From the NCBI GenBank assembly GCA_007751475.1, contig CP036434.1, forward strand, positions 930,001-994,000: a DNA stretch of 64,000 nucleotides. Reading direction: 5' to 3'. The DNA is from Saltatorellus ferox (GTDB lineage Bacteria; Planctomycetota; UBA1135; GCA-002686595). Both the position numbers and the translations under genes were made by a program. Each line of letters starts with the position of its first letter. The first letter of the stretch is position 1. The notes beneath the pieces are model-generated. The model made no database searches. It was not told the DNA's origin and saw only the letters and a list, made by a program, of their open reading frames with translations. This document shows positions 34,835 to 53,896 of this stretch, in pieces.

Positions 34835-34931
34835 GCGCGTTCTCGGATGCCAGGCGGATCAGGTTCCGCGTTTGGGTCCGCGCATATTCGATCCTCCGCA
34901 ATCGTCCCGCAGCGCGTACCGTTCATGGGTA

Positions 34932-34957
34932 GCGGCGTGAGGCTGTTGCCTCGCCGC
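34932..34957 (+). terminator. Hairpin between YihY gene and tandem-domain gene
   Basis: GCGGCG (34932-34937), TG bulge, AGGC / GCCT (34948-34951), CGCCGC (34952-34957). A ten-pair stem with a four-base loop, 98 nt after the YihY stop and 34 nt before the next ATG; no T tract. Either terminator or 5' leader structure. Confidence 0.45.
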
Positions 34958-34991
34958 CGTCATTCCGTCCCTACTCTCCTGCGCGCTCTTC

Positions 34992-36788: not shown

Positions 36789-36890
36789 TGTGGATGGACC
36801 TGTCAACCCCCCTGCGGTGAGGCTTCCGATGGTCTTGTTGGGTTAGCTGAACAGTTGATAGTTCCCCGAAGCGCCCCCGCGTGGTCGCCT

Positions 36891-36960
36891 GGGAGCTTGT
36901 CGCGCATTGACGGATTCGCGTAGTGCGCTACGCGGATTCGTCAATGCGCGACAAACTCCT
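36891..36960. repeat. Long inverted repeat in convergent gap
   Basis: Arms 36891-36923 and 36928-36960 (33 bases each) around a TGCG loop. Pairing is complete except one C/A mismatch (36896/36955) and a few G-T wobbles. It lies between the convergent tandem-domain gene and prmA. The rest of the gap (36789-36890, 36961-37049) shows nothing recognisable. Confidence 0.93.
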
Positions 36961-37049
36961 GGCAGCGACGGCGCGGGGGCGGATCTTGGCGGTCCTCGCG
37001 CGAGTATCGGGCCGAGTCGCGATGGTCCAGCCGCGGGACGGGAATCCGC

Positions 37050-37976
37050 TCAGGCTCGAGCGCCGACGAAGGTGACCCAGCGGCCGCGCTGGCGCTCCTC
37101 GTCGATCCGCAGGCCGACCTCGTTCATTTTCGCGACCGTTGCGTCGCGGTGGTCGAATCGGCATCCGCTGAACGCGAACCAGCCGGTGGGGGCGAGGCGA
37201 CGATGGAATTCGGCCGCGTGGGCCTGGAGCACGTCCGCGTAGATGTTCGCGAGCACGACGTCGAAGCCGATCTCGTCCTCGCGCAGCGCGCTGAAGTCGC
37301 CGGGTCGAAAGTCGCAGCGGGCGGCCACTCCGTTGTCTTCGGCCAGTTCGTCGGCGGTGGGCTTGGATACCGGGTCGATGTCGAAGCCGACGGCGGATTC
37401 AGCGCCGAGCAGAGTGGCGGCGACCGAGAGAATGCCGCTGCCGGTCCCCGCGTCGAGCACGCGCTCGCCGCCGCGGATGCGCTGGTCGATCACGCGCAGG
37501 CACGTGCGCGTGCTGGCGTGCCGGCCCGAGCCGAACGAGCCGGCGGGCTGGATCGTGAAGCGAATATCGGACTCCCGCGGTGGACCCTCCTCGCGCCACG
37601 GCGGAAGGAGGACGAGCCGTCCGACGCGGAACGGCTTCCAGTCCTTGCGCCAGGACGTGGCGTAGTCCTCGGGCGGCAGCGGCTTGAAGTCGGCGCGGAG
37701 CCCCGTGAGTTCCTCGACGCCGATGAGTTCCACGAGTTCGTCGAGCTTGACCTGGACCCTCTGGCGGAACGACGGCGTGTCGTCCTGGGCCATCACGAAC
37801 GTGCGGACGGCGTCGTGGCCTTCCTCGGGCTGGCGAGCCGCGATCGAGGTCGTTCCGAAGGCCACCGTGGTGCAGGGACCGAAGTTGAGAGTCTCGGCGA
37901 CGAGCTCCTGCCAGCCCTGGGGCACGTCGACACGAACCTCGGTCCAGCCCATCTTCGATCGAAGCTCCTTCGTCAT
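37050..37976 (-). CDS. prmA: Ribosomal protein L11 methyltransferase
   Basis: 308 residues from ATG 37976. The N-terminal recognition domain is followed by the PrmA motifs FGSGRHASTRTCLRVID (family FGTGxHxTT), VLDAGTGSGILSVAATLLG (SAM site) and DVVLANIYADVL (catalytic NI). PrmA trimethylates L11 (RplK) in the cytoplasm. Length fits the family (about 300). Divergent from the sulfatase gene with 61 bp between. Confidence 0.9.
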   Translation of the reverse strand: MTKELRSKMGWTEVRVDVPQGWQELVAETLNFGPCTTVAFGTTSIAARQPEEGHDAVRTFVMAQDDTPSFRQRVQVKLDELVELIGVEELTGLRADFKPLPPEDYATSWRKDWKPFRVGRLVLLPPWREEGPPRESDIRFTIQPAGSFGSGRHASTRTCLRVIDQRIRGGERVLDAGTGSGILSVAATLLGAESAVGFDIDPVSKPTADELAEDNGVAARCDFRPGDFSALREDEIGFDVVLANIYADVLQAHAAEFHRRLAPTGWFAFSGCRFDHRDATVAKMNEVGLRIDEERQRGRWVTFVGARA

Positions 37977-38037
37977 GGGAGGGATCCTACCTGTTGAGTT
38001 CCTGCGACGGGCGACCGTTCACGCTATCGTCGGGGCC

Positions 38038-39696
38038 ATGTGGATTTCCTCTCTCTTGGCGCTGGCCAGCGTCCTCGGGGCCCCTCAGGTCGAGGCTTCT
38101 GCCGCTGCGCAGATCGAAGCCTCGACCGCGGAACCGGCCAGGCCGAACATCCTCCTGATCCTGACCGACGACCAGCGCGTCGACACCATCGGGTCCTGGG
38201 GGAACCAGCACATCGCCACTCCGAACATCGACCGCCTCGTGAACGCTGGCACCTCGTTCCGCCGGAACTACTGCATGGGCTCGCCGCATGGAGCTGTGTG
38301 CGCGCCGAGCCGGGCCATGATCCATTCGGGCCGCGCGTATCATTCGATCGATCACAGCGCCCTTCGCGACGTCGAACTCCTGGGCGAGACGCTGCGAGCG
38401 CGCGGCTATCGAACCTACGGCGTCGGCAAGTGGCACAACGGCCAGGAGTCCTTCAAGCGCAGCTTCGACGAGGGGCGCGCCGTGCTCTTCAGCGGTATGT
38501 CCAACCACTTCGACGTGCCGCTCCACGACGTGGGCGCCGACGGCAGCGTGGAGACGCGCGAGCCATCGACCGAGCACTCGTCGGACCTGTTCTCCGCGGC
38601 GGCGATCAGCTTCCTTGAGGATGCAGGGCAGAGCGAGCCGTTCTTCCTCAGCCTGGCGCTCACGGCGCCGCACGATCCGCGCGATCCGCCTGCGGAGTAC
38701 CGCGAGCGCGAGTTGCCGGAGCTGCCCGCCAACTTCAAGCCGCAGCATCCGTTCGACAACGGCCACCTCACGCTGCGCGACGAGAACCTCGCCGCGTGGC
38801 CCCGCGATACGGCGACGGTCCGGCGGCAGCTCGGGGACTACTACGGGCTGGTGGAGCACATGGACGCGGCCATCGGCCGCGTGCTGGACGCGCTCGAAGC
38901 GCGGACGGACGGGCGCGAGACCGTGATCGTCTTCGCGTCGGATCACGGTCTCGCGCTCGGCAGCCACGGACTGCTCGGGAAGCAGAGCGTGTACGAGCAC
39001 AGCCTGCGGGCGCCGCTCGTGATCGTCGGCCCCGGCGTGCCGGCGGGCCAGCACGTGACGGCGCTCACGTACCTCCTGGACATTCACCCGACGCTGCTCG
39101 GGTTCGCGGGGCCTCTGCCGGAGCCGGAGCCCGAAGAAGCAGAAGAAGCCGAAGCGGCGGAGGAGACCGGCGTCGAGGACGAGAACGAAACCGTCGAAGA
39201 AGCACCCGAGCTACCGCTGGAGGGCTCCGATCTCGGCCACGTTTCCCGCGACCTGGCTCCGATCTGGCGCGGCGAGCGCGCCGAGGTCCGCGAGTCGATC
39301 TACCTCGCCCTCGGCCGAACGCAGCGCGCGGTGACGGACGGCCGCTGGAAGCTCAGCGTTTACCCCGCGATCGGCCACAGGCAGCTCTTCGACCTCGCGA
39401 CCGACCCCGACGAGCTGATCGACCTCGCGGGACGCCTGCCCTTTCAGCACCACATCGACAGGCTCATGATCGACCTGGAGCGATGGAGAGAGCGTATCGG
39501 CGACCCCGATCCGCTGACGGTAGGGGAGCTGAAGCCTTTCCACGTCGACCTCACAGGCAGGGCGCGCAAGCCGGACCGCTGGCAGCCCCAGTGGATCCGA
39601 GAGACGTTCTTCGATCCTCAGCCAGAGGAGCCAGCAGTGCCAGCGGTGCCGGAGCCGCCAGCAGAGGCAGAAGCGGCAAAGGAGCCGAAGAAGTGA
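38038..39696 (+). CDS. Type I sulfatase (formylglycine-dependent)
   Basis: 552 residues from ATG 38038, which starts a signal peptide. Sulfatase fold: PNILLILTDDQRVDTIG with metal-binding Asp pair (D44, D45), catalytic CAPSR at 88-92 where C88 becomes formylglycine, GKWHNG, HDPRDPP and ASDHGLALGSHGLLGKQSVYEH with the second metal pair. A Glu-rich insertion (about 365-400) interrupts the domain near a surface loop, and the C-terminus is a Glu/Ala/Pro tail. Closest in feel to choline-/glycan-sulfatases of planctomycetes; the substrate cannot be told. Needs a formylglycine-generating enzyme encoded elsewhere. Confidence 0.92.
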   Translation: MWISSLLALASVLGAPQVEASAAAQIEASTAEPARPNILLILTDDQRVDTIGSWGNQHIATPNIDRLVNAGTSFRRNYCMGSPHGAVCAPSRAMIHSGRAYHSIDHSALRDVELLGETLRARGYRTYGVGKWHNGQESFKRSFDEGRAVLFSGMSNHFDVPLHDVGADGSVETREPSTEHSSDLFSAAAISFLEDAGQSEPFFLSLALTAPHDPRDPPAEYRERELPELPANFKPQHPFDNGHLTLRDENLAAWPRDTATVRRQLGDYYGLVEHMDAAIGRVLDALEARTDGRETVIVFASDHGLALGSHGLLGKQSVYEHSLRAPLVIVGPGVPAGQHVTALTYLLDIHPTLLGFAGPLPEPEPEEAEEAEAAEETGVEDENETVEEAPELPLEGSDLGHVSRDLAPIWRGERAEVRESIYLALGRTQRAVTDGRWKLSVYPAIGHRQLFDLATDPDELIDLAGRLPFQHHIDRLMIDLERWRERIGDPDPLTVGELKPFHVDLTGRARKPDRWQPQWIRETFFDPQPEEPAVPAVPEPPAEAEAAKEPKK

Positions 39697-39768
39697 GCCA
39701 TTCCCGGCCCAAGTCCCCACGCAGGTTGCGACGGGCCGCAGCGGACCGAATAGTGGGCATCCTCCGCC

Positions 39769-40236
39769 ATGACTGAAACTGACTCAACCGACAGGCCGCC
39801 CCTCAACGCAACGCTCACTCCGCTGATCCAGCGGCACGTGCGCGTCGGCTGGGTCGCGATGCTTCTCTTCTTCTTCGGCGGGCTCGTGCTGGAGGCGCTC
39901 CACGGCTTCAAGGTCGATGCCTACCTCGGCGCGGACAACGAAACGAGACGGCATCTCTGGACGCTGGCCCACGCCCACGGAACGCTGCTCGGCCTCGTGA
40001 ACCTCGCGTTCGCCTGGACGCTCTCCCGGCCGCAGCCGTTCCGCGAAGGCGCGGCCCGGTTCGCATCGCGCTGCTTCTTCGGCGCGACGATCCTGATGCC
40101 TGCGGGCTTCTTCCTCGGTGGCGTGGTCTTCTACGGCGGCGACCCGGGCGTCGGGATCGCGCTCCTCCCGCTCGGCGCGCTACTCCTCATCGTGGCGACC
40201 GCGATCACGGCGCGGCAGGTCATTCGGTCAGCATGA
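39769..40236 (+). CDS. Small four-helix membrane protein
   Basis: 155 residues, four predicted membrane segments: WVAMLLFFFGGLVLEALHGF, LAHAHGTLLGLVNLAFAWTL, FFGATILMPAGFFLGGVVF and IALLPLGALLLIVATAI. The HAHG motif in helix 2 could bind metal or haem (inference). I do not recognise a named family. Its last 17 bp overlap the 3' end of the convergent octaheme cytochrome gene, so a membrane redox partner is conceivable but unproven. Confidence 0.75.
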   Translation: MTETDSTDRPPLNATLTPLIQRHVRVGWVAMLLFFFGGLVLEALHGFKVDAYLGADNETRRHLWTLAHAHGTLLGLVNLAFAWTLSRPQPFREGAARFASRCFFGATILMPAGFFLGGVVFYGGDPGVGIALLPLGALLLIVATAITARQVIRSA

Positions 40237-42187
40237 TCGGCGTGTGATCCCGGGCAGCCAGGAGACGCTCGAAAAGCGTCTGGGGGATCGAAACGCGGCC
40301 GTTCTGGTGAAGCGCCTGGTTCGCGCGCCAGGTCTCCAGGACTCCCTCGCGAAGCGCGGACGCGGTCTCGGCGGTCGTGAGGAAGTCCGTCTTGATGGCC
40401 TCGTAGCCCGGCTGGAGCCGGAGCGCGCGCATCGCGTTGAAGCGAGTCGCGTCGTACGGGTCGGCCAGGAACTCTGCGAGGATGCCCGGCATCCAGTCGT
40501 GCTCGGAGGCCGCGAGCGCGGGCTCCCAGGTCATGGCCCAGGCGATGAGCGCGCGCTGGCCCGCGTCTCCGCTCAGTCCGAGGCGCACGCCCGCGGCGAG
40601 GTCGCGCGCATCGGAATCGAGCGCGACGGGGGCCGCGCCGTACCACTCGACGAGCCGGTCTTCGACCCAGCCGAGCGAGCGATCCAGGTGGCACAGGCTG
40701 CACGCGTTCGGGCGGCCGGTCGCGAGTTCGGTCGCCACGCTGGGGGAGTCGATCTCGTGGGAGCGCGTCGCCTTCATCAGGCCCCAGGTGGTGTGGGGCA
40801 TGTGGCAGTTGACGCACTGGCTGCCGCTCGATGCGGCGCCGTGGTGCGTGTGGCGCGCGAGCTCTGTCTCGTCGCCATACGCTTCGTGACACTGGACGCA
40901 GGAGGCGTTGGACTGGCGCTCCTGGGCGAGCATGTCGTCGGCCCATTCCTCGCGCGTCCGCGGGTCCGAGGACGCGCGGTGCGCCGAGTGGCAGGAGGTA
41001 CAGTCCATGATGCCGCGCTCGGCGTCGCCGTGGGCGAAGCAGGGGGAGCGCTGAAGTCCGTTGAACTCTCGCCCGCCGATGCGAACCATGCCGTCGGGCC
41101 AGAAGTGTTCGCGCATGAAGCCCGGCGTGGAACGCGCCAGTTCCTGGGTGCCTCGCTCGCGTCTACCGCCGAAGACGATGTGCGTTTCCTCCAGATCGGC
41201 GCCCGGTCGATAGGGGCTTCCGTTCTCCTGCGCATCCGCGAGCCGCTTCGGCACGAGGGCGTTCACGGAGTGGCACTGGGCGCACACGTGGGCGGAGGCC
41301 TTCGCTTCGAGCCGCTTCGGGTTCACGACCGAGTCGTCGGCCGCGTCCGAGAGGTGCTGCTGGTAGCGGCGCAGGGGGTTGCGATTCAGGGACGCGTGGA
41401 GGTCGCCGGGGCCGTGGCACGCTTCACAGGAGATTCCGAACTCGCCGACCACGGTCTCTGCCGCCGCGATGGCGGCGGGCGTATTCTCCATCACCTTGGC
41501 ACGGGCGTCGGTGGTGTGGCACTTGACGCAGTGAACGTTCCAGCGGCCGACGTCTTCCCTGGGGGCGTGCACGGGCTGCATGAGGAAGACCGAGGACCAG
41601 GGGATCCAGCGTTCTTCGTCGAGGTGATAGTAGAGCGGGAACATGCCGAGGCCGCGCTGGTCGCCGTAGCTGTACCAGAACACCTGGATGTGGTGGCTGC
41701 CGGTGACCTGGGTGAAGCGGACGCGCTTGGTCCGTTCGCCGCCAGCATCGGGCGCTTCGATCGGGAACGTCCCCCAGTATTCGTCGCCGACGCGCTCCAT
41801 GGCGAAGCGCTCGCCGCGGATCGTCAGATCACCATCGAAGCGCGCGAGCACCGTGCCCGGCTCGACGGGCTGCGTCATGGTGCTGTGGTAGGAATCCTGC
41901 CAGCTGGAGTACTGCCCGGGATGGCAGGAACGGCACTCGTTCGAGGTGACGTAGGCATCCGTCGGGACTTCGAGGACGCGGCCCGCGGGCGTAGGGGGCG
42001 CGCGGAAGGATTCCGGTGTCTCGGTGCCGAACCAGAAGCCCGCCAGAAGGGAGACGGCGAGCAGAGCGCCGAGCGCGCGCCAGCCGAGCCGCGGCTGCGA
42101 CGGAAGCAGGCAGGTCAGTCCGAAGAGCGCGCCGAATGCGACCAGCGTGCCGAGGGCGGTGGCGAGAGGGGCGTCGGGGAGGGGCAT
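40220..42187 (-). CDS. Octaheme c-type cytochrome, membrane-anchored
   Basis: 655 residues from ATG 42187. Two N-terminal hydrophobic segments (about 8-28 and 38-54) anchor or export the protein. Eight CXXCH haem sites: CRSCH 85, CVKCH 220, CEACH 254, CAQCH 302, CTSCH 396, CVQCH 430, CVNCH 458, CSLCH 496. The MPHTTW and HLDRSLGW motifs after the last haems recur in planctomycete multihaem proteins with C-terminal helical repeats. Probably a periplasmic electron-transfer protein or reductase; the substrate is not visible. No haem-lyase gene nearby. Confidence 0.9.
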   Translation of the reverse strand: MPLPDAPLATALGTLVAFGALFGLTCLLPSQPRLGWRALGALLAVSLLAGFWFGTETPESFRAPPTPAGRVLEVPTDAYVTSNECRSCHPGQYSSWQDSYHSTMTQPVEPGTVLARFDGDLTIRGERFAMERVGDEYWGTFPIEAPDAGGERTKRVRFTQVTGSHHIQVFWYSYGDQRGLGMFPLYYHLDEERWIPWSSVFLMQPVHAPREDVGRWNVHCVKCHTTDARAKVMENTPAAIAAAETVVGEFGISCEACHGPGDLHASLNRNPLRRYQQHLSDAADDSVVNPKRLEAKASAHVCAQCHSVNALVPKRLADAQENGSPYRPGADLEETHIVFGGRRERGTQELARSTPGFMREHFWPDGMVRIGGREFNGLQRSPCFAHGDAERGIMDCTSCHSAHRASSDPRTREEWADDMLAQERQSNASCVQCHEAYGDETELARHTHHGAASSGSQCVNCHMPHTTWGLMKATRSHEIDSPSVATELATGRPNACSLCHLDRSLGWVEDRLVEWYGAAPVALDSDARDLAAGVRLGLSGDAGQRALIAWAMTWEPALAASEHDWMPGILAEFLADPYDATRFNAMRALRLQPGYEAIKTDFLTTAETASALREGVLETWRANQALHQNGRVSIPQTLFERLLAARDHTPIMLTE

Positions 42188-42354
42188 GGGGGAAAGGCTC
42201 GATGGGCGCGGAGGCCCTCCCCAGTGTAGCTCGTGGCGGAACGACAGCCGGCGAAAGCCGTCGTTCTGGTGGGAGCCGGAGATGCTAGATTGGGACACCG
42301 CTGCCGCTCGATTCGGCGCTACCGCCCGTGGCGGCACCGCGAACCTCCACCGCC

Positions 42355-43941
42355 ATGACCCTCGATCGATCCCGGTGGCAACCTCGTACGACGACCTTCA
42401 TCGTACTGATGGCTGCGGCCAACGCTCTCCTGTACCACGCGCCGCTCTTCTCGTTCGCGGCGGACCATCTGGAGGTCGGTTCCTTCAGTGGCATCCTGAC
42501 GCTGGTCACCGCGCTGGTGGCCTTGTTCTCCTCGACGGCGCTGTTGCTTTCCTTGCTGGCGCTGGTTTCCCACAGGCTGCTGAAGCCGATCTGCATGGTC
42601 CTCGCGATCACCAGCTCGATCGCCGTCTACTTCGTCGCGACCTATCAGGTGGTCCTGGACAGAACGATGATGGGAAACGTGCAGAACACGAACCTCGCCG
42701 AGTCCCTCGAGCTTTTTCACCCGAAGCTCCTGGTGTACCTCGCGCTGCTGGGCCTCCTTCCGGCCGGGCTACTCGCCGGGGTGCGGGTGGAGAAGTCGCC
42801 GCGGCTTCGCGTCGCCGCCATGGCCGCGTCGGTGCTGGTGCTGACCGTGACCTGGGGGTGGATGGCCTCCGGAACCTGGGGCTGGATCGACAAGAACGCC
42901 AAGAGGCTGGGCGGTCTGGTCATGCCATGGTCCTACGTGATGAACACCGTAAGATCCGCGGCGCCGAAGCTGTGGCAATCGGACGTCCAGATTCTCTTGC
43001 CCGAGGCCGCATTCACCGATGACGAGAAGTCGGTCGTCCTCCTCGTCATCGGAGAGTCGGCGCGGGCGCAGAACTTCTCGCTGTACGGCTACGAGCGACC
43101 GACGAATCCGCAGCTGGAGAAGGCGGGTGCGGAGGCGCTCCAGAGTACGATGGCGTCCTCGACCTACACGACGGCGTCGGTGCGCTGCATCCTCTCGCAC
43201 GTGGATTCCAGCTCGGAGTTCTCCACCCGCTACGAGCCCCTGCCTTCGTACTTGCAGAGGCACGGCGTCGATGTGATCTGGCGCAGCAAGAACACGGGCG
43301 AGCCTCCCATCCAGGTCCAGACCTACGAGACGGCGAGGGAGCTAGCCAGGGACTGCCCTGGGCCAGAGCGCGACTACGACGAGGTTGTTCTGACGGGTCT
43401 CGAAGAGCGAATCCGAAGCTCGTCCAGTCAGAAAATCCTCGTGGTCCTCCATCAGGCCGGCAGTCACGGCCCGTCCTACTCGACCAAGTACCCGATCCAC
43501 TTCGAGGTCTTCCGTCAGGTCTGCGAATCGGTCGAGCTGGGAACCTGCAGCGAGGAGGAGCTGTACAACGCCTACGACAACACCATCCTCTACACGGACC
43601 AAATTCTCAGCCGGACCATCGACGTTCTGAAGAGGATCCCGGCCGCTTCGCCCCTTCTGATCTACATCTCGGACCACGGAGAATCGCTCGGCGAATATGG
43701 CCTCTACCTGCACGGCGCGCCCTGGATGATCGCGCCAGATGTCCAAAAGGCCGTCCCCTTCATCGTCTGGATGTCGGAAGAATTCACCGAACGAAGAAAC
43801 GTCCATCCCGCCCAGCTCCAGGCGCAAACCGCACACAGTCAGAGAGACATCTTCCACACGATCCTGGGAGCCCTCTCGATCCAGAGCGAGGTCTACGAGG
43901 AAGAGTACGACATCTTCAACGAGTCCTTCTCGAACCGATGA
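42355..43941 (+). CDS. eptA: Lipid A phosphoethanolamine transferase (EptA-like)
   Basis: 528 residues from ATG 42355 (a GTG nine codons earlier is possible). N-terminal DUF1705 region with five membrane helices, then a periplasmic sulfatase-fold domain: VIGESARAQNFSLYGYERPTNP (metal Glu), STYTTASVRCILS (nucleophile Thr), HQAGSHGPSYSTKYP and SDHGESLGEYGLYLHGAPWMIAP, matching EptA/MCR enzymes almost block for block. It adds phosphoethanolamine to lipid A, lowering negative charge and polymyxin binding, so it implies an LPS-bearing outer membrane. Divergent from the cytochrome gene; its stop codon is three bases from the 161-bp palindrome. Confidence 0.92.
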   Translation: MTLDRSRWQPRTTTFIVLMAAANALLYHAPLFSFAADHLEVGSFSGILTLVTALVALFSSTALLLSLLALVSHRLLKPICMVLAITSSIAVYFVATYQVVLDRTMMGNVQNTNLAESLELFHPKLLVYLALLGLLPAGLLAGVRVEKSPRLRVAAMAASVLVLTVTWGWMASGTWGWIDKNAKRLGGLVMPWSYVMNTVRSAAPKLWQSDVQILLPEAAFTDDEKSVVLLVIGESARAQNFSLYGYERPTNPQLEKAGAEALQSTMASSTYTTASVRCILSHVDSSSEFSTRYEPLPSYLQRHGVDVIWRSKNTGEPPIQVQTYETARELARDCPGPERDYDEVVLTGLEERIRSSSSQKILVVLHQAGSHGPSYSTKYPIHFEVFRQVCESVELGTCSEEELYNAYDNTILYTDQILSRTIDVLKRIPAASPLLIYISDHGESLGEYGLYLHGAPWMIAPDVQKAVPFIVWMSEEFTERRNVHPAQLQAQTAHSQRDIFHTILGALSIQSEVYEEEYDIFNESFSNR

Positions 43942-43944
43942 CCG

Positions 43945-44105
43945 CCCTATCCGACACAAACGGACCAGGTGCATCCATTCCGACACAAACGGACCAGGTG
44001 CAGCTGTACCGATACGAACGGACCTGGTCCGTTTGTATCGGTACAGCTGCACCTGGTCCGTTTGTTTCGGAATGGATGCACCTGGTCCGTTTGTGTCGGA
44101 TAGGG
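43945..44105. repeat. 161-bp near-perfect palindrome between convergent genes
   Basis: Arms of 80 bases around a single T at 44025; I paired every position and found one mismatch (43984/44066) and one G-T wobble (44016/44034). Each arm contains three direct repeats with the core ACAAACGGACCAGGTGCA (first two, near 43955 and 43984) and a variant ACGAACGGACC (44014-44024). It fills the whole gap: the eptA stop ends at 43941 and the sigma factor stop begins at 44107. Confidence 0.97.
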
Positions 44106-44106
44106 G

Positions 44107-46620
44107 TCAGAGGGGTGACAGGCCTTGGGCGTTGAATCGCAATCGTTGGCGGGTTCGGGGGCGGTTCGTCCGGAGTTCTGTGCGCGTTCCTGTCCAGAAG
44201 AGGTAGTCGCCGTACGGGGCCCTGAAACGGTAGCGGCCGTTAGGGGCGACCGTGATCCACTCGGTGGGGCTGCCGACTGCGTTCGTGCCGACCTGTAGTG
44301 GACCACTCGTTTCTTCGGCCAGGACGTGGAGGAACAGGCGGTCTTCGGGGGCGGGGGCAGGAAGAGTGCCCGTCGCGGTGTGGTCGGTTTCTAGCTGGAT
44401 CGTGAGCTCGTTCGCGCCGGGTTGGATCGTGACGAAGCCGTTGGCGCGCGACGAAAGCGTGGTCGAGTGGGGACCATGGGTCATCAGGTGCATCCAGACG
44501 CGACCGGGTGTTGCCGGGACCGTGCGGCTTCGGCGACTCGACCTCAGAAGATGTCGGCGCGTGGTTGACGGGGAGGGACCGTAGTTCAGGACACACAGCG
44601 TGGAAGGGGTCGTGCCCGGGGGGGAAATGTAGTTCACGGTGATCGCTGTGGGGGGGCGCCGCTCGAAGCGGAGCTGCAGGGGTGGCGACTCGCCGTGGAG
44701 GTCTGTCTCGAGCACCGCGTCCTCGAAGTCCGGGTGGTGGGCCGCGATCCGGTAGAAGCCGTCCGGGACCATCTGCCATTCGAAGTGGCCATCCGCGTTG
44801 ACCTTGCCGGGAGGGACACGCTGGCGATAGAGGGCGAGTCGTCGTCCGTCCGCGTCCGGATCACTGAGCAGGGTTCGCTCGATCCACACTCGGGCGTAGT
44901 CGGGATCTGCCACCGAAGCAGGAAAGGCAACGTGGGCCGACTCCTTTCGCGAGGGGCTGAGCTGGATCGTTACCTCCGTGATCTTCGAGGCGAGCGGTTC
45001 GCAGATCGCCATGCACAGGGGAACATCGGTCGGGTCGAAGTCAGGGCCTGGGGTGATGGGGGCGACCGCCTGCACCACGATCGGCTTCGGCGCATCGGCG
45101 AAAGGCAGGGGAATCAGGAAGCGACCTTCTCGAGCGGGCTGGGACAGGTCGAGGTACTTGTAGGCGCCTTCTTCCTCTCGCCATTCCGCGCTGGCTGAGA
45201 CCTTGGAATCCGGGGCTGGCTCGCCGCTTTCACCCAGGACGGTCACGTCGACGTAGGTCGCGATCTCAGCGGGAAGCTTCAGGGATAGATGCCCGGACGC
45301 AGGGATCACGATGGGGGCGAGGTCGTCATCGGCGCTGGCCGCGAACGCGTCCTCCAGGGAGTACGCCAAGCCGTTCTTCTGATGGGTGTACGCGCGTGCC
45401 GTCGAGTTCGTGTAGAGGCAAAGCGGCTGGCCCACGGGGAGGCCGTGGGCCTCGCCGTGCCCGGACGCGTCCACTTTGAGCTCCACCCGAGCGGCTGGCA
45501 TCCGCGAGAACTCCCGATTCGGATCGGCCAGGCTCGGCGCGATCCCGATCACTCGCTGCTTCACCAGGCTCGAGGGGAGCTGGACCTCCAGCATCCCGGC
45601 ATCGGCGGTCGGCTCCGCGAGACTTTTCATTCGCCCGATGGTTCCCGAATTCGCGGGGGCGGGCTGTTCCTGCCTGGCGTCCTGCTCCTCCGGCGAACCC
45701 TCCGCTACAGACCCGGCGCCCTCGAGGAAGGCCTCCGGCTCCGACGAGCCCCCGGCTGCGGAGGCCAAAGCCACTCGGCGTTCTGCTCTGGAACCAGCGG
45801 TCGCGCGCGTCAACGACGAAGAAGCTTGGGAGCTCTGCGCCGCGGAGGTGTCACCCGCCCCGACAAGGGCGGCTGTCCCCTCGCGTGGCGGCGAAGGGCT
45901 TCCTTCGGGTGACGTCGCCCATCCGGTCACGCCCAGGACCGCAGCCGTCATCGCCGCGACAGCGCCCACCGCCATCGCGATCGGACCGGCGGACCACCAG
46001 GTCCCCATCGATGAGGACTTCAGCGAGTCGAGGGCGCGTCCCTTTCCGCCGAGCGCAGTCATTCCCCCGAGCCAGGCCGCAGGGCCACCGCTCGAGTCCT
46101 TGTCGAGCCGACGCCGAAGCGCCTCGAGCCCGCGCGTCACCCTCGACTGGATCGTCGTCACTGGCGCGTTCTCCCGCGCCGCGATCAGGGCGAAGCTCTC
46201 CCCGTGATAGAAGCGAGCGACCACCGCGTCCCTGACCTCCGGCTCCAGCGACCGAACGTGCGCGAGCAGTCGCTCTGCCAGGTCCAGCTGCGCCACGCTA
46301 TCGAAGCTCGACGGCTCCGCTTCCGGGCGCGCCGCCGCTCCTTCGCGATCCGCGCGCCGGGCGCTTGAACGACGTTCGTTGTAGGCCTTGCGCCTGAGCA
46401 CGCGCGCCAGCCAGGGCCGACTCGACCGCCGATCGAGCTGAGTGCCCACCGCCGCCGAGGTCGCCCCGGCGATCAGCGTCTCCTGGGCCAGGTCGTCCGC
46501 CTGGGATGCATCGCGAACGATCTGACGAGCCAGTGCCCGTAAGAAGTTGGCCTGCTCGGCCAGCTCGGGGCTGATGGCCTGGAAAGGGTCAGGGCCCGAG
46601 GGGAGGAAAGGGGGATTCAT
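44107..46620 (-). CDS. ECF sigma factor fused to a membrane helix and large extracytoplasmic region
   Basis: 837 residues from ATG 46620. Residues about 20-90 are sigma region 2 (FLRALARQIVRDASQADDLAQETLI, RPWLARVLRRKAYNERRS) and 115-172 region 4 (LPEVRD-like AVVARFYHGESFALIAARENAPVTTIQSRVTRGLEALRR). A membrane helix (about 212-232, MAVGAVAAMTAAVLGVTGWA) is followed by a Ser/Ala/Glu-rich linker and about 500 residues of beta-rich carboxypeptidase-regulatory-like units (for example PDGFYRIAAHHPDFEDAVLE). So DNA-binding and sensing parts sit on one chain across the membrane, a planctomycete speciality. Probably a self-contained envelope sensor; targets unknown. The palindrome abuts its stop codon. 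Confidence 0.88.
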   Translation of the reverse strand: MNPPFLPSGPDPFQAISPELAEQANFLRALARQIVRDASQADDLAQETLIAGATSAAVGTQLDRRSSRPWLARVLRRKAYNERRSSARRADREGAAARPEAEPSSFDSVAQLDLAERLLAHVRSLEPEVRDAVVARFYHGESFALIAARENAPVTTIQSRVTRGLEALRRRLDKDSSGGPAAWLGGMTALGGKGRALDSLKSSSMGTWWSAGPIAMAVGAVAAMTAAVLGVTGWATSPEGSPSPPREGTAALVGAGDTSAAQSSQASSSLTRATAGSRAERRVALASAAGGSSEPEAFLEGAGSVAEGSPEEQDARQEQPAPANSGTIGRMKSLAEPTADAGMLEVQLPSSLVKQRVIGIAPSLADPNREFSRMPAARVELKVDASGHGEAHGLPVGQPLCLYTNSTARAYTHQKNGLAYSLEDAFAASADDDLAPIVIPASGHLSLKLPAEIATYVDVTVLGESGEPAPDSKVSASAEWREEEGAYKYLDLSQPAREGRFLIPLPFADAPKPIVVQAVAPITPGPDFDPTDVPLCMAICEPLASKITEVTIQLSPSRKESAHVAFPASVADPDYARVWIERTLLSDPDADGRRLALYRQRVPPGKVNADGHFEWQMVPDGFYRIAAHHPDFEDAVLETDLHGESPPLQLRFERRPPTAITVNYISPPGTTPSTLCVLNYGPSPSTTRRHLLRSSRRSRTVPATPGRVWMHLMTHGPHSTTLSSRANGFVTIQPGANELTIQLETDHTATGTLPAPAPEDRLFLHVLAEETSGPLQVGTNAVGSPTEWITVAPNGRYRFRAPYGDYLFWTGTRTELRTNRPRTRQRLRFNAQGLSPL

Positions 46621-46740
46621 GGCTACAGGGGTAGGAAATCGGAGCGCGGCGCTCGCCGCTACCTCGATTCACCGCCTCCCGTCCCCAAAACGACGGAGAT
46701 TCCGATTTGTCGCCTCGCGATCCCTGTGTGGCTATCCTTG

Positions 46741-46750
46741 ACCGATCGGT
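46741..46750. promoter_or_regulatory. Candidate TetR operator
   Basis: Perfect palindrome ACCGATCGGT 23 bp before the TetR ATG, embedded in TTGACCGATCGGTTT, which resembles known TetR-family sites and overlaps a TTGACC -35-like hexamer at 46738. Suggests autoregulation of the TetR and hydrolase genes. Confidence 0.5.
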
Positions 46751-46773
46751 TTCTGTTTGGCAGAGTGGTGCCC

Positions 46774-47376
46774 ATGAGTCCCGGACCCCAGAAGAGCTTC
46801 GACGTCGAGGAGGCCGTCCTGACCGCGCGCGACCTGTTCTGGGAGCGCGGCTACGACGGCACCGGAATCCGCGATCTGGAGGTGGCGATCGGCATCGGGC
46901 GCAAGAGCCTCTACGACACCTTTGGCAGCAAGCGCGAGCTCTACCTGCGCTCGCTCAGGAAGTACGCGGATACCGTCATCCAGAGCATCTGCGACGGGCT
47001 CGAGCGCGAGGGTGTCGGAGCGCTCGCGAACCTCGAGCGCGTCCTCGGCAAGCTCCAGAAGCACCACGGCTCCGACGGCAGCCTCGGGTGCCTGCTCGGT
47101 GTCGCGATCGGGCAGATCGGCGCCGACGACGAGGAGCTGGCGGCGTTCCTACGCGGCGTTCTCGATGGTATGGAGCAGGCGTTCGAGCGCTGTCTCCGCG
47201 AGGCCATGGGCGCAGGAGAGGTTCGCTCGGACCTCCAGCCCAGGGACGCCGCGCGCCAGCTCGTCGCTCTCTCCCAGGGCATGGCGCTCCTCGGCCGCGT
47301 CTCCGACGGCCCCGCGCGCTCCCGTTCGATCATCCGCGCCGCCCTCGCGGCGCTTCGTCCCGTCTCTTCGAGTTGA
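46774..47376 (+). CDS. TetR/AcrR-family transcriptional regulator
   Basis: 200 residues from ATG 46774 (an upstream in-frame Met is less likely because it would overlap the operator-like palindrome). N-terminal helix-turn-helix FDVEEAVLTARDLFWERGYDGTGIRDLEVAIGIGRKSLYDTFGSKRELY is a full TetR_N domain; the C-terminal half (GCLLGVAIGQIGADDEELAAFLRGVLDGMEQ) is the TetR_C type found in AcrR/YxaF regulators. Ligand unknown. The hydrolase gene starts five bases after its stop, so the two form an operon and the hydrolase is the likely regulated gene along with itself. Confidence 0.9.
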   Translation: MSPGPQKSFDVEEAVLTARDLFWERGYDGTGIRDLEVAIGIGRKSLYDTFGSKRELYLRSLRKYADTVIQSICDGLEREGVGALANLERVLGKLQKHHGSDGSLGCLLGVAIGQIGADDEELAAFLRGVLDGMEQAFERCLREAMGAGEVRSDLQPRDAARQLVALSQGMALLGRVSDGPARSRSIIRAALAALRPVSSS

Positions 47377-47381
47377 ATCCC

Positions 47382-49511
47382 ATGAGTCCCACCCTGACCG
47401 CCCTCCTCGCCCTCGCTGCCTTTCAGGGCGCGGACGTCGCCTCGCCGGAAGCCTTTCCCGCTTCCACCCCGATCGCAGAGTCGCTCTCGCCCCAGGTCGT
47501 CGCCGATCTGAGCGAACTCGTCCAGAGCTTCGTCGACGACGGCGAGATCGTCGGCGGCGAGCTGCTCATCCTCAAGAACGGCCGCACCGTGCTCCACGGC
47601 GCCTACGGCTGGCGAGACCAGGCGTCCAGGACCCCGATGGAGCCGGGCGGCGTTTTCTGCGTCCGGTCCATGACCAAGCCGCTCATCGGCACCGCCATCG
47701 CGATGCTGGTGGAGGACAGGGCGATCAAGCTCGGCGACCCGGTCTCGAAGTACCTGCCCGCCTTCGACGCGGCCAGCACGCGCGAGATCACCATCGATCA
47801 GCTCCTGCACCACACGAGCGGCCTGCCGCTTTCGCTCATCATGAGGTCGAACCCGCGCGAGCTGACGAGCCTCCGCTCGGTCGCCGACATGGGCGGCGGA
47901 GTCGAGCTCGAGTTCGAGCCCGGCACCGGATTCCACTACAGCGACCAGGGCACCGATACGCTGACCGCCCTCATCGAGGTCGTGACCGGAGCACCTGCGG
48001 AGGACTTCATCGAGGCGCGCATCCTCGACCCCCTCGGCATGGGGGACAGCGCGTGCCTGATGACGAAAGACGACCCGCTTCGTGCGCGAGGCGTCTCGAA
48101 GTACGCCGGAGCCCAGGGCAGCTGGACCCGATTCTGGTCGCCCGAGGACGAGGCGCTCTTCCCGATCTTCCTCGGGTCCCAGGGGCTCTACTCGACGGCC
48201 GTCGACTACGCGAAGTTCGTCCAGATGTGGATGAAGAAGGGTCGCGGTCCGGACGGACGTCTGCTCCGTGGCTCCTCCGTGCGTCGCGGCCTCGAGCCGG
48301 GCCCTTTTCCCATCGGGGCCCCGACGGGTTTCCCCGGACTGGAGACGGCCTACGGCTCGCTCATGCAGCTCTGGACGCGCCCGACGGCTGACGACGAAGA
48401 CGAAGGCCGCGACGTCGTCGTCTTCGGCCACACGGGCTCCGACGGCACCCACGCCTGGGCCTTCCCCGAGCACAACGCCATGGTGCTCTACTTCACCCAG
48501 TCGCGCGGCACGCTGACGGGTCTGCGCGTCGAGGAGCAGCTCGGCGCACTCCTTCTCGGCGTCCCCTTCGACCCGATCGAGGCCGCCCCGCCCCTGGAAC
48601 AGTACCTCGGCTACTACTGCGAGGACCGGCCCAACGACCGCTACCGCTCGATCATCCTCCACGAGGGCGGGCTCGCCCTGGAGATCCTCGGCAAGGCCGT
48701 GGTGCCGCTCGTGTACGCCGGCGACGACCGCTGGAAGCTCAAGCCCCAGCCGGGCACCGTCATCGCCTTCGATCGTGGGGCAGCCGGGGAAGTCACGGGC
48801 TACCACATCGGCGAGCACCAGGAGTTTCGCTTCGAGCCCGCCGCCGACCTGCCGACCGCCGATGAAGTGGCCGATCACGTCACCGCGACGCATCGGATCG
48901 ACCGGCTGGAATCCCTCGGTGTGCTACGCATGAAGAACGACTTCGAGATGGAGAAGCTCGGGATCTCGGGTCAGCGCATCGCCTGGTACGGCTGGCCGGA
49001 TCTCTGGCGCGTCGACGAAAGCACCGGAGAGGAAACCGCGGCTACCGGCTCGGACGGGAAGGCCGTCCGGATGAAGATCGGAGACAAGCCGACCGAAACG
49101 CTGGAAGGGCTCGCGGTCACGCTCGGCAACCAGAACTCGCTCGGCGCGCGCTTCGGCGACTGGCGAAAGCGCGGCATCGACGCCCGGGTGATCCAGCGCA
49201 TCGAAGAGGACGAGCGTGGAATTCTGCTCGTGCGGCTCGGAGACACTTCAGGGATGGCCACCACGCTCTACGTCGACGAGACCGAGTGGACCGTTGGTCG
49301 CCTCGACGGCATGACCATCCTCCCGGGAATGGGGCTGATCGGCCAGACCATCCAGTTCAGCGACTTCCGCGATCTCGAGGGCATGCGCCTGCCCTATCGG
49401 ACGGAGATGGAACTCGCCAACCCGATGATCGGGAGGATCATCGGGCTGGTGACGGACGCGACGGTCGGTGTGGACGTCGAGGAAGGCTGGTTCAGACTCC
49501 AGAAGGACTGA
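47382..49511 (+). CDS. Exported serine hydrolase (class C beta-lactamase/esterase fold) with C-terminal extension
   Basis: 709 residues from ATG 47382 with a signal-like start (MSPTLTALLALAAFQGADVA). Residues 40-400 form a beta-lactamase-related domain: nucleophile motif SMTK (S96, K99), YSD (Y186) and HTG (350-352) in place of KTG. Residues 400-520 resemble the lipocalin-like tail of such hydrolases. The last 200 residues (ATHRIDRLESLGVLRMKNDFEMEKLGISG, IGQTIQFSDFRDLEGMRLPYRTEME) are a lipoprotein-localisation or peptidase-inhibitor-like beta domain seen in planctomycete proteins. Probably an esterase or D-aminopeptidase rather than an antibiotic-resistance enzyme. Confidence 0.85.
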   Translation: MSPTLTALLALAAFQGADVASPEAFPASTPIAESLSPQVVADLSELVQSFVDDGEIVGGELLILKNGRTVLHGAYGWRDQASRTPMEPGGVFCVRSMTKPLIGTAIAMLVEDRAIKLGDPVSKYLPAFDAASTREITIDQLLHHTSGLPLSLIMRSNPRELTSLRSVADMGGGVELEFEPGTGFHYSDQGTDTLTALIEVVTGAPAEDFIEARILDPLGMGDSACLMTKDDPLRARGVSKYAGAQGSWTRFWSPEDEALFPIFLGSQGLYSTAVDYAKFVQMWMKKGRGPDGRLLRGSSVRRGLEPGPFPIGAPTGFPGLETAYGSLMQLWTRPTADDEDEGRDVVVFGHTGSDGTHAWAFPEHNAMVLYFTQSRGTLTGLRVEEQLGALLLGVPFDPIEAAPPLEQYLGYYCEDRPNDRYRSIILHEGGLALEILGKAVVPLVYAGDDRWKLKPQPGTVIAFDRGAAGEVTGYHIGEHQEFRFEPAADLPTADEVADHVTATHRIDRLESLGVLRMKNDFEMEKLGISGQRIAWYGWPDLWRVDESTGEETAATGSDGKAVRMKIGDKPTETLEGLAVTLGNQNSLGARFGDWRKRGIDARVIQRIEEDERGILLVRLGDTSGMATTLYVDETEWTVGRLDGMTILPGMGLIGQTIQFSDFRDLEGMRLPYRTEMELANPMIGRIIGLVTDATVGVDVEEGWFRLQKD

Positions 49512-49535
49512 TCTCCCTGCGCGCCAGGACCGTTC

Positions 49536-50231
49536 TCACATCCCGTCGTTCGCGGGAGTCATGGACGCGTCTTCGGCGCCCACCGAGCGCGCGTAGGCGC
49601 TCGCCTTGCTGAGCTTCTCGTTCGCAAGCTTGAGACGCTCCGAGGCCTTCGCGACCGCCTCGTTCGCGACTTCCACCTCGCGCTGCTGGGTGGCCACGAT
49701 CTTGCGGAACTCGGCCAGCGGAATCTTACGCACCTCGACGAGGTCCACGTCCTGGACGGCGATCGCCGAGGCTTCCTCGACCTGGGCCTTGCGGAGTTCG
49801 TGGGTTGCCTCGGCGAGGTCCGCCTCCGCTTCGGCGAGTTCCTGCTCGCGCCGCTCGACCGCGAGAACTTCCTTGGCGACCTCGGCCAGCGCCAGGGCCT
49901 TCGAATGCTTGAGCGCCGCCGCCTTCAGTTGATCAGGCGAGCCGCTCTTCTCGGCGACCTCGGCAGCCAGCTTGGACTGCTCCGCCTCGGCTTCGGCCGT
50001 CCTCAGCGCCAGCTTCGCCATCATCACCTCGTCTTCGGCGCGATCCGCCGCCGCCATCGCGATGGCGAGTTCGTCGTTCGCGACGTCACGCTCGGAGCGA
50101 GCGGCGGCGATCGCCGCGCGTGACTCCGGAGTCGCGTGCACCAGCAGGGAGTTGTCGACCGTCGCAGGCTTGCTGCTGGCACAGGCGACGAATCCGAAGA
50201 GGGCAACAGCGGGGAGGAGTGAGGACTTCAT
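49536..50231 (-). CDS. Coiled-coil lipoprotein
   Basis: 231 residues from ATG 50231. Signal peptide with VAC lipobox (C17; Phe at -3 makes it weak). Almost the whole mature part is a Glu/Ala/Lys heptad coiled coil (ERDVANDELAIAMAAADRAEDEV, EVLAVERREQELAEAEADLAEA, KIVATQQREVEVANEAVAKA). Similar to DUF4398-type or OmpH-like envelope lipoproteins. No enzymatic motif. 24 bp from the convergent hydrolase gene. Confidence 0.82.
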   Translation of the reverse strand: MKSSLLPAVALFGFVACASSKPATVDNSLLVHATPESRAAIAAARSERDVANDELAIAMAAADRAEDEVMMAKLALRTAEAEAEQSKLAAEVAEKSGSPDQLKAAALKHSKALALAEVAKEVLAVERREQELAEAEADLAEATHELRKAQVEEASAIAVQDVDLVEVRKIPLAEFRKIVATQQREVEVANEAVAKASERLKLANEKLSKASAYARSVGAEDASMTPANDGM

Positions 50232-50341
50232 GGGGGCCACGGGGATGAGGGGCGTTTTGCGGGGGTAGAACCCTCGTATTCTAACGGACTGGGGCATCGA
50301 AGAGGGTCTGACGGCGCTGTCAGAGAATCCGATCCCGTCGA

Positions 50342-53300
50342 TCAGAAGGGGAGGTCGGACTCGTTGATTTCGAGTGGGCCGTCGTTCGAGTCGAACATCG
50401 CGCCCAGCGGAAGGTCCGGCGAGAGTTCCAGCGGGAGGTCCCTTCCGGCGCGCCGGATGGGCTCGGCCTGCGCGGGCGTCCCGCCCGAGAAGTAGGGGCT
50501 GAGACCCCGCCGCTCCATGTCTGCGAGGAGGCCGAGGTGCGCAAACGCCTCGCGGCTGACGAGGTCGAGGTCGCCCCGCGACATCCTCGCCTTCGCCGCA
50601 GGATCCCATGATCCTGGCCGCTCCACGGGTAGCTCCTTCAGGAAGTGCCCGTGGCGCCTCTCGGTGATGCGGCCGTCGAGCACCATCACCACGCCACGGT
50701 CCGACGCCTTCCGCATCAGGCGGCCAAAGCCCTGGCGGAACTTGGCGAGCGCGCGTGGCATGTAGATGCGCTGGCGCTGGGCGCCGACGCCAATCGCGGC
50801 GCACTGGGCATGGTGGTAGCGATCCGGGACGCCGTAGGGGAGCCGCGCGATGACGAGCGTCTCCAGCGTCTCTCCGGGGAAATCTGCGCCGTACCAGAAC
50901 GTATCGACGCCGAAGAGCGTGGACTCGACGCGCTCGCGGAAGAGGTCCGATAGCTCCTCCTTGCCCGCGGCGTCCATCCCCTGCCAGAAAAGCGGCAGCC
51001 CGCGCGATGCAAACGTCGGGCCCGCGCGCTCCGCGACCTCGCGGATGTCGCGGAGACTCGTGAACAGAACGAGCATCCGCCCACGCGTCCGCTCCGCGTA
51101 CCACGGCAGGTAGCGGCTCAGGAAGTCGAGGTACGCCTCGCGGTTCTGCACCGGCGGGATGCCGCGCGGAACGCCGACGAGCACGCGCTCGTAGTCGAAG
51201 ACCTCGGGCGCGTGGAAGGTCGTCACGCGCCGCGTCCCGGCCGTTCGATCGAACTCACCGGTCTCCTCGTTCTTCTGGGCGACGCGATCGAGCCCGAGGT
51301 AGCTCTTCGCCTGGTCGAAGCTGCCGCCGATGCGCGTCGTCGCCGACACGAACGCCGCGGACCCGAGTTCGGGATAGTAGTACTTGCCGAGCGCGTCGCC
51401 GGGCAGCAGCACGAGCGCCGCCAGCATCAGGTCCTCTCGCACGTTGCGCTCGACGTCGTGGAAGACCATCCCGCCGAGCCGCGGCGCGCCCTCGTCGATC
51501 GGGAGCCACGCGTCCACCGCCTTGCCGACGTCGGCGATCTCGACGCGCGCGAGTTCCAGCGCACGCCGGATCCGCGCCACGCGCTTGAGGCCCATCGTCT
51601 CCAGCTCCTCCGAGAGCTGCGCGAGCGAACCGTCGAGTCGCCCCAGGAACATGACGACGTTGAGCCTCGCGGTCACGAGGTGCTCGGCCTGTCCGCTGGC
51701 GTCGACGTACTCGCGGAACAGGCTGTGCTCCATCGCGTCGGAGCGGCCGACCTGGGCGCTGGCGCGCCAGCGCTCGTACTCCAGGAGCGTCGACTCCAGG
51801 TGCGTGATCGCCGAGGACGCGTTGGTCCAGAGCTGGCGCGATGCGCTCAGGCGCTCGGCGGCGCCGGTGCCGGGCAACAGGTACTTCGTCAGCCGATCGA
51901 GCGGCGGCTTCGCTCGGCGAAAGTAGCCGTCGCGCTCGTTGTCGGGGCTGTGCAGGCGTCGCAGGACGCGCCGCATCTCCGTGAACGAGATCCGGTGGCT
52001 CCAGGCGCTCATCGCCTGGTCGTGCAGGTGCTCGCACTCGTCGAACACGACGCGACGGAAGAACTCGGGACGCGCCAGCGCGAACGATTGATTCGTCAGC
52101 ACGACGTGGCTGCGCTCGGCGCGCCGGCGTGCGATCTCGGCAGCGCAGACCGCGCGGTCTCCCTGGGTACTGCAGCAGCCGCTGCGCCCGCGGACCTGGG
52201 CCACGAGCGAGGCCAGGCTCTGGCGGTAGTGCGTGCTCGAGGTCAATCGCACCGGCGGACGGCGCGGAAATCGATCGAGGTCGCCGTCGCGGTCGCGCAG
52301 TCCGAAGAGCGCGAGAGCGACCCAGCCGAGCCATGTCTCGGGGTCGTCGCCTTCGGCCGGAGCGTGAATACGGAGCGCGCGCCAGCAGAGCGAGTGCTCT
52401 CGCCCCTTCAGGATCGAGACGCGGAAGCCGGGCGACAACCCTGCGCGGTTGAGCGCCTCGAGGGCGCGCGGCACCTCGCGCTCCATGGCCTGGCTCTGCA
52501 GCGCGCGCGTATACGTCGCGATGCCGACGCGCACGCCGTAGCGCCGCGACCACATGAGCGCGGGGAGGAGATAGGCGAGCGTCTTGCCGGTACCGGTGGG
52601 GGCGTGAACGAGAAGCAGCTCATCCGAGCCGAGGCAGCGCGCGACCTCTTCGGCGACGCGGTGCTGGCTCTTGCGATAGAGGGACGCCTGGTTCGACTTG
52701 GAGTTCCCGGCGCCGAAGAGCGCGGGCAGGTGGACCTTGAAGAGATCGTCGAGCAGCGCGAGGTCTTCCTCCAGAAAGGGCGCGGGCTCGTCGACGTCGG
52801 GCTTGAGCGGCGTTTCGTCCGCGAACTCGATGCCGCTCTCGGCGGCAGCGGGATCGACGAGGCCGAGGGGATCGTCCTCGTCGACGAGTTCGGCCTCGGA
52901 ATGGGAGACAAGGCCGTTCTTCAGCCTGCCCGCGGCGAAGAGGTCGACGTCGCCGCCCCAGCTCCCGGGCTGATCGATGATCGAGAGCGAAAGCGAGAGG
53001 CGGCGGGCGGCGGCCTCGTCGGTCGCGCGGAAGAGATCGTGGGCGCGGAGCCAGCCGAACGCGGTCAGCGCGTGGGCCGCGGGTCCGAGGTCGCCGAAGC
53101 GAGCCACCAGCTCGGCGAGTGCCGCGAGCACGTGGGGCGGCTGTAGCGCGCCCGGCGGGGACGGGGCGATCATGGGATCGACGAGCGCCGCGACGAGCTG
53201 GGCGGGGCCCAGCGACGCGAGCGTACCTGGCTCCAGCAGCATGGCGACCTCGTCGAGGCCGATCGGGTCGAGCGGCGTCAGGCGCAGGGCTGCTTCCTGG

Positions 53301-53683: not shown

Positions 53684-53836
53684 CGTCGTTCCTGCGTCTC
53701 TTGGTGGTTTGTGGGCTAATTGGCATGTACCTGGGGATCTCCAGCGAAGATGCCGCAGGCGCGTCCTGGGTATCGCCTGAGACGCAGATCGGGTAGCATT
53801 TTGGCCCGCTGAACGAATTCAGGAGCTGAACCTCGC

Positions 53837-53896
53837 ATGAGAATCCGCGCTCCCTTCCGCACTATCCGCGTGAGCCTATCTTTCCCGCCAGCATGA
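53837..53896 (+). CDS. Possible leader mini-ORF overlapping leucine dehydrogenase start
   Basis: 19 codons from ATG 53837 (product MRIRAPFRTIRVSLSFPPA), whose TGA overlaps the ATG of the next gene (ATGA at 53893-53896). AGGAG at 53821-53825 could serve as its ribosome site, while the downstream start has none visible. The coupling geometry suggests translation of the mini-ORF delivers ribosomes to the dehydrogenase; it may also just be chance. Confidence 0.35.
   Translation: MRIRAPFRTIRVSLSFPPA

Follow-up and report, generated by a model that had tools for sequence, protein, structure and literature searches.

The stretch of Saltatorellus ferox DNA analysed here (64,000 nucleotides in length, hereafter "the window") carries, between two convergent genes, a long palindrome. 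The features of the locus are as follows:

42409-43941, plus strand: left gene, EptA/EptB-type phosphoethanolamine transferase (sulfatase domain), stop codon TGA at 43939-43941, start codon unsure
43945-44105, no strand: palindrome, the whole element with its mirrored 6-bp flank CCCTAT/ATAGGG
43945-44024, plus strand: left arm, 80 nt
43950-43978, plus strand: 29-bp unit 1, containing the terminal half-unit CCGACACAAACGGACC
43979-44007, plus strand: 29-bp unit 2
43997-44010, minus strand: half-unit GGTACAGCTGCACC, found among the 45 clusters described below only here and at its mirror place
44008-44036, plus strand: 29-bp unit 3, across the central dyad
44025, no strand: central T, in the ACCTGGT dyad of the lattice
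44026-44105, minus strand: right arm, 80 nt
44040-44053, plus strand: mirror partner of the half-unit at 43997-44010
44107-46620, minus strand: right gene, sigma-70 regions 2 and 4 (ECF-like) with a long C-terminal part, stop codon at 44107-44109

The left gene has one named match, in an Oleiharenicola MAG (68%). The protein of the right gene has 75 matches in the S. ferox genome, as well as 44 in G001 and 62 in the congener G006; those listed fall mostly on the sigma-factor end and lie inside frames of several hundred to more than 1000 aa.

Base pairing of the palindrome bears out the arms of 80 bp around a central T described in an earlier note on this DNA: the arms are 98% complementary with a spacer of 1 nt (T), and the only departures from pairing are one C/T mismatch and one G/T wobble. 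The same note counted three repeats of a core in each arm; three units per arm at 29-bp spacing are indeed present, although in the left arm the third of them, ACGAACGGACC, departs by one letter from the core as given there. The intergenic gap is also, as claimed, filled nearly end to end, with 3 bases to the left of the palindrome and 1 base to the right separating it from the stop codons. Allowing up to 3 mismatches, the window contains five copies of the 18-nt core unit where 0.06 would be expected, and palindromes with a score of at least 14 number only six in a 464-kb sample of the S. ferox genome, comprising the window and 20 stretches of 20 kb. The RNA of 43935-44115 is predicted to fold with -171.3 kcal/mol, compared with -61.2 +/- 4.1 for 200 shuffled sequences (z -26.7). 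No T-run follows the stem on either side, and a terminator scan of 34000-53900 gave 10 sites (8.1 in shuffles), none of them at the palindrome. An Rfam identity was rejected: all ten matches (E up to 1) lie under the gathering scores, nine of them being to microRNA precursor families and one to mraW, and such weak matches arise because the stem is long.

The palindrome is not unique. In the single contig of 7,718,526 bp, of which the window is positions 930001-994000, we found at least 45 clusters of related repeats with 167 ACCWGGT-type nodes, which we call family 1. The clusters were located in 43 regions, and their number is a lower bound, as the similarity search scored the best 40 of 53 candidate places and the pattern search covers part of the 129 matches mentioned below. 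At up to one mismatch the pattern CAAACGGACCAGGTGC occurs 129 times in the contig, and its reversed control not at all. In 60 relatives the same search gave one or two matches in each of eight genomes, and in eight congeners none. A longer lattice pattern, also at up to one mismatch, has 222 matches in this genome and a single match in each of 3 of the 153 other genomes of the order, while its reversed control has none here and scattered single matches elsewhere. The exact unit pattern gave no match in a collection of 84,980 species, in which near records are perhaps absent, or in viral contigs; diverged units would escape both searches. None of the titles and abstract openings returned by literature searches describes family 1, by which we do not claim its absence from print. 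Among the genomes searched, family 1 thus occurs only in this one. That the family and its anatomy are real we hold with high confidence, and on present evidence the palindrome at 43945-44105 is likewise a real sequence and not an artefact.

Analysis of the clusters reveals a common design. Half-units of ~14.5 bp, each spanning the interval from a CCGG-type dyad (TTCCGGAA) to an ACCWGGT dyad, are strung together in every cluster, so that two of them make up 29 bp, with variable linkers; there are between 1 and 10 nodes in a cluster, and units occur in plus and minus orientation at 29-bp spacing. The middle letters of the half-units vary (66 distinct 14-mers), and their starts depend on position: 225 of the 244 inner half-units begin with GGAAC, GGAAT or GGTAC, while GACAC begins 58 of the 90 outer half-units and only 6 of the 244 inner ones. 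Judged by eye, the sequence at the outer ends is (A/T)NSCGACACAAACGGACC; A or T occupies the second position beyond the element in 88 of the 90 flanks. Two conserved, inverted ends with a hairpin-forming interior are present in family 1, though not in its one-way arrays (L064, L070, L084 and L090), which are poorly mirrored. A target-site duplication was considered and rejected, since direct repeats of at least 5 nt are no more frequent than chance (2/45 clusters, i.e. 4.4%, vs 3.2% in mixed-locus flank pairs); for repeats of at least 4 nt the values are 22% at cluster ends and 13% in flank pairs of different loci.

Nearly all copies of family 1 are intergenic, most of them a short way downstream of a stop codon. 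Gene calls were made with a crude Markov model rather than a standard gene finder, with unsure start codons, and 44 loci were placed, the lone unit of L070 not being counted. Of these 21 are convergent, 20 co-directional and 3 divergent, whereas the 302 gaps of the 464-kb sample comprise 45 convergent, 208 co-directional and 49 divergent ones (p 2.6e-7 for the convergent enrichment). With the first gene model none of the 44 loci lies inside a gene; with a second model one of 45 does, apparently L078, where a call of score 25 overlaps the element. Neighbouring gene 3' ends lie 0-30 nt from the element in 41 of 63 cases, seven of them at exactly 1 nt. The suggestion that further copies should be sought genome-wide near gene ends thus had a positive outcome, and as far as distribution goes the dispersed REP/MITE-like family of the earlier note is supported. 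The earlier note also stressed that the palindrome exactly fills its convergent gap. The fit itself is real but calls for no special cause, because the remainder resembles a native short gap: the convergent gap minus the element has a median of 31 nt (n=21), compared with 34 nt for native convergent gaps (n=44; p 0.68).

In family 1 the linkers vary between loci, yet within one locus the two arms mirror each other's linkers far above chance. Among the 14-mer half-unit variants seen exactly twice in the 45 clusters, of which there are 16, ten are mirror partners within one palindrome (GGTACAGCTGC of the window palindrome is one of these), three recur at other places of the same locus and three at different loci. 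For 39 elements, i.e. leaving aside six clusters with a single node or another spacing, we compared mirrored pairs about the geometric centre: 80 of 156 are identical, while a control in which the second arm was taken from another element of equal size gave 14% on average and at most 24% in 5000 shuffles. The inner mirrored pairs alone are identical in 56 of 117 cases (11% in the control). When the best dyad is chosen instead of the geometric centre, 84 of 143 pairs are identical; this dyad lies off centre in 13 of the 39 elements, as expected of one-sided gain or loss of units. A higher figure (79/96) was discarded as inflated because it was restricted to well-scoring dyads. No whole-element duplicates were found among the 39 elements. 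Changes of several bases mirrored inside one stem, the pattern that template switching would leave, are present.

In some loci the mirroring extends into the flanking DNA. An inverted repeat beyond the terminal half-unit reaches a score of at least 8 in 12 of the 45 clusters, compared with 1 of 1980 mixed-locus pairs, and a score of at least 10 in eight clusters, compared with none of the mixed pairs. At L083 28 bp are mirrored without mismatch and at L087 45 bp with 2 mismatches; the 23-nt core of the L087 flank occurs in the genome only in its two arms, with no third copy even when 3 mismatches are allowed. Convergent gaps of the sample often carry stems of their own (score of at least 10 in 10/39, a count that includes the palindrome of the window and some stems resembling the second family described below, vs 1.5% of 194 genic controls), and for this reason the flank stems of 8-17 bp may be older hairpins; such an origin fits the stems of 28 and 45 bp less easily. 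Palindromes without a family-1 node were also seen at L080 (G000:C1:4519480-4519542, 31-bp arms) and L085 (G000:C1:5752477-5752528, 26-bp arms), and positions 36892-36959 of the window hold, in a convergent gap, an inverted repeat with 34-bp arms and 4 mismatches, which by eye resembles neither family.

One pair of loci, L081 and L096, belongs to a segmental duplication (92.7% identity over 1066 bp and 93.3% over 253 bp), with a family-1 element at the matching place in both. L081 has two nodes and contains a perfect 62-bp palindrome, and L096 has three nodes. The second half-unit is GGAACGGACGG in L096 and GGAACAACTGC in L081; the latter is also the third half-unit of both, and in L081 the second half-unit equals its mirror partner. 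This comparison, a single case, shows that the number of units and a block of half-unit sequence changed, in one direction or the other, while the flanks diverged by 7%. Among the best 40 of 121 candidates, which were scored, there is one further paralogue of the segment, at 75% identity (L178); it has a different neighbour and neither a family-1 element nor a palindrome nearby. In 371 kb of two congeners there is no relative suitable for an empty-site alignment but only distant orthologues, the best full-length neighbour having 56% protein identity. The congener G006 contains a 114-bp palindrome of other sequence (L167:6716-6829), and the congeners may have palindrome families of their own.

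The genome has 11 matches to Y1_Tnp, but by coordinates all of them are more than 10 kb from the known family-1 copies (the nearest locus is ~10.8 kb away). The family-1 core was absent, at up to 3 mismatches, from about 1.5 kb on either side of 10 Y1 loci, and from L139, which covers the eleventh match. On present evidence a Y1 link for family 1 is therefore rejected, and the RAYT with matching ends that the earlier note proposed to look for was not found in a transposase search covering Y1 (RAYT-type) enzymes. A second, unrelated family of palindromes of ~97-123 bp is built around GGCGGTACCGAACCCGACCCAAAGCCGCCACGTTTCC (GGCGGTACCGAACCCGACCC...). It gave 96 matches, with both strands of a place counted, and the best 40 of 93 candidate places were scored; copies lie at 54979-55079 of the window, L145:9449-9571, L136:2733-2831 and L129:2064-2160. 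The copy in L129 adjoins a Y1 gene with a half copy on the gene's other side, and in contrast to family 1 this pair looks like an ordinary RAYT/REPIN pair; in L126 another copy and a different type of Y1 gene are ~0.55 kb apart. We also found a multi-copy element of ~1.2-1.4 kb (L124-L128, L131-L133) with a Y1_Tnp gene, which in five copies is a 233-aa frame, and with inverted repeats of ~100-150 nt near the ends.

Intrinsic bidirectional terminators place a hairpin between the stop codons of convergent genes, and so does the palindrome at 43945-44105; unlike them, it has an 80-bp near-perfect stem and no T-run, and it belongs to a repeat family. Among known repeats, the REP/BIME sequences are described as regularly spaced palindromic units in alternating orientation, extragenic, species-specific and mostly located between convergent or co-directional genes, with palindromes maintained by paired changes (PMC2817692, PMC3733652, as far as the available text of these reports goes). 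Family 1 shares with them, as so described, the many extragenic copies, the short palindromic units, the regular spacing and the alternating orientation. It differs in its 29-bp lattice with two dyads, in whole arrays mirrored about one dyad, in the mirrored flanking DNA of some loci and in having no RAYT linked to it. The REP tag is described as being of the GTAG or CGTC type, the CGTC form with a stem of 8-9 bp and a loop of 4-5 nt (PMC3733652, available portion). No tag of either type was seen by eye at the ends of family 1; TGTC, listed there as a CGTC variant, occurs inside GTGTCGG of family 1 without the small stem-loop described. Family 1 is thus BIME/REP-like in anatomy and placement, but its membership among REPs is not established, because there is neither a GTAG/CGTC-type end nor a Y1 gene near the copies. 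REPINs, in the text available to us (PMC3116915), are inverted repeats that form one hairpin, conserved at their outer ends and more variable inside, and family 1 agrees with them in all these respects; it has, however, 1 to 10 nodes rather than a doublet, no whole-element duplicates among 39 and no matching RAYT. Template switching has been described as capable of making and mending perfect stems, as inferred in RNA genes (PMC8794818, part of the text). The stems of family 1 may similarly be attributed to reverse-complement copying, but unlike the hairpins of RNA genes they are dispersed repeats on a 29-bp lattice.

We propose that family 1 is an extragenic family in which the 29-bp units form mostly long inverted repeats behind stop codons and in which copying in place probably maintains the likeness of the two arms, so that the transcripts of both genes flanking the window palindrome would end in a long hairpin; we assign this reading a probability of about one half. 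A hairpin-forming array met by the polymerase during DNA replication would provoke template switching or snap-back synthesis, in which the polymerase copies the other arm, and sometimes the DNA beyond it, before it returns. The mirroring would thus result from templated copying, with block-wise arm identity, locus-specific mirrored sequence and mirrored flanks as its products, and units would be gained or lost in 29-bp steps. RNA hairpins would form and either have no effect or serve as 3' ends or terminators; gene 3' ends would be the sites where hairpins do least harm and possibly bring some benefit as ends of transcripts. New loci could be seeded by a transposase acting in trans. This reading agrees with the pairing of rare half-units within loci (10/16) and the excess of identical mirrored pairs (80/156 vs a mean of 14%), with the absence of any two alike among the 39 whole elements, with the mirrored flanks of 12 of the 45 clusters (28 bp at L083, 45 bp at L087), and with the block change between L081 and L096 and the off-centre dyads in 13 of 39 elements; template switching is moreover said to make as well as repair stems (PMC8794818, part of the text). 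On the other hand, the specialised GACAC ends better suit a defined mobile unit than free growth, flanks of 8-17 bp could be older hairpins given the stems in 10 of 39 convergent gaps, the one-way arrays L064, L070, L084 and L090 are poorly mirrored, the paralogue pair is one case, and the 371 kb of two congeners hold no relative near enough for an empty-site alignment. Compensatory changes in REPs, too, have been interpreted in the literature as selection (PMC2817692, in the portion available).

The most serious alternative, which we nevertheless consider unlikely, is a REPIN- or MITE-like mobile element: ready-made hairpins would be spread as single-stranded DNA by a transposase supplied in trans, of the Y1 (HUH) or another type, and would owe their mirroring to the parent element. 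Such an element, which the earlier note had suggested, is consistent with the dispersed, species-specific copies (at least 45 clusters, enriched in convergent gaps), and its defined termini would be the GACAC of 58/90 outer half-units with A or T as the second outside base in 88/90 flanks. The 11 Y1_Tnp matches and the second palindrome family beside Y1 genes also speak for it. Neither a Y1 gene with matching ends nor a target-site duplication was detected, however; the Y1 matches and the known family-1 copies are more than 10 kb apart, 10 Y1 loci have no core within about 1.5 kb, the 39 whole elements are all different, and moving a finished element leaves the mirrored flanks of L083 and L087 unexplained. 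It is the specialised ends that lead us to retain a mobile origin with the enzyme in trans among the explanations.

Selection on base pairing could instead keep the stem perfect if the palindrome served as a bidirectional terminator or as a stabiliser of mRNA 3' ends, which we hold to be improbable. The concentration in convergent gaps (21/44 loci vs 45/302 gaps), the 41 of 63 neighbouring 3' ends within 0-30 nt and the very stable predicted RNA fold would all suit this role, but purifying selection against damage to promoters or genes would leave the same placement, the stem lacks a T-run, and the terminator scan places no site at the palindrome. Furthermore, the mirrored rare linkers are several letters off the common ones, and each would require several paired substitutions. 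More improbable still is that the repeat went precisely into the tips of hairpins or terminators that already existed, whence the mirrored flanks. The native stems in 10/39 convergent gaps (this element counted) and the REPs described within palindromic sequences (PMC3733652, available portion) speak for it, but it leaves the mirrored rare linkers inside the element unexplained and does not easily explain the flank stems of 28-45 bp. An assembly or sequencing fold-back, to which the perfect arms of some palindromes (e.g. L083) might point, is hardly credible, since 45 clusters share the design with different sequences, the arms often differ (at 43945-44105 in two places), unlike DNA resumes on either side and the copies are enriched at gene ends. 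As to the replication or repair signal of the earlier note, no observation in our analysis favours such a role.

SbcCD-type enzymes cut palindromes. SbcD scored over the NCBIfam curated cut-off in none of the nine genomes of the genus, compared with 8 of 14 control genomes, and the S. ferox genome has two weaker Mre11/SbcD-like matches. One family-1 element (L076, G000:C1:4241988-4242116) lies ~100 bp upstream of a gene (4242236 onward) with sub-cut-off Mre11/SbcD-like matches, which may be a coincidence.

If copying in place is the correct reading, the palindromes of family 1 could be self-perfecting, an extension that we put forward tentatively and with less confidence than the reading itself: once an array has come to lie behind a gene, replication would copy arm onto arm and into the flanks, and near-perfect hairpins of 60-200 bp would arise, lengthen and diverge at gene ends without a transposase, in a genome without SbcD over the curated cut-off. 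This genome retains many palindromes of 60-200 bp, and in E. coli the longer of these should be targets of SbcCD. Paired changes in perfect RNA stems are usually taken to prove selection on base pairing; family 1, with its mirrored linkers and flanks, provides a dispersed natural set in which copying from arm to arm could be separated from such selection. Mirrored flanks might also explain the REPs that, in two genomes, have been described inside longer palindromes found nowhere else in the genome (PMC3733652, available portion).
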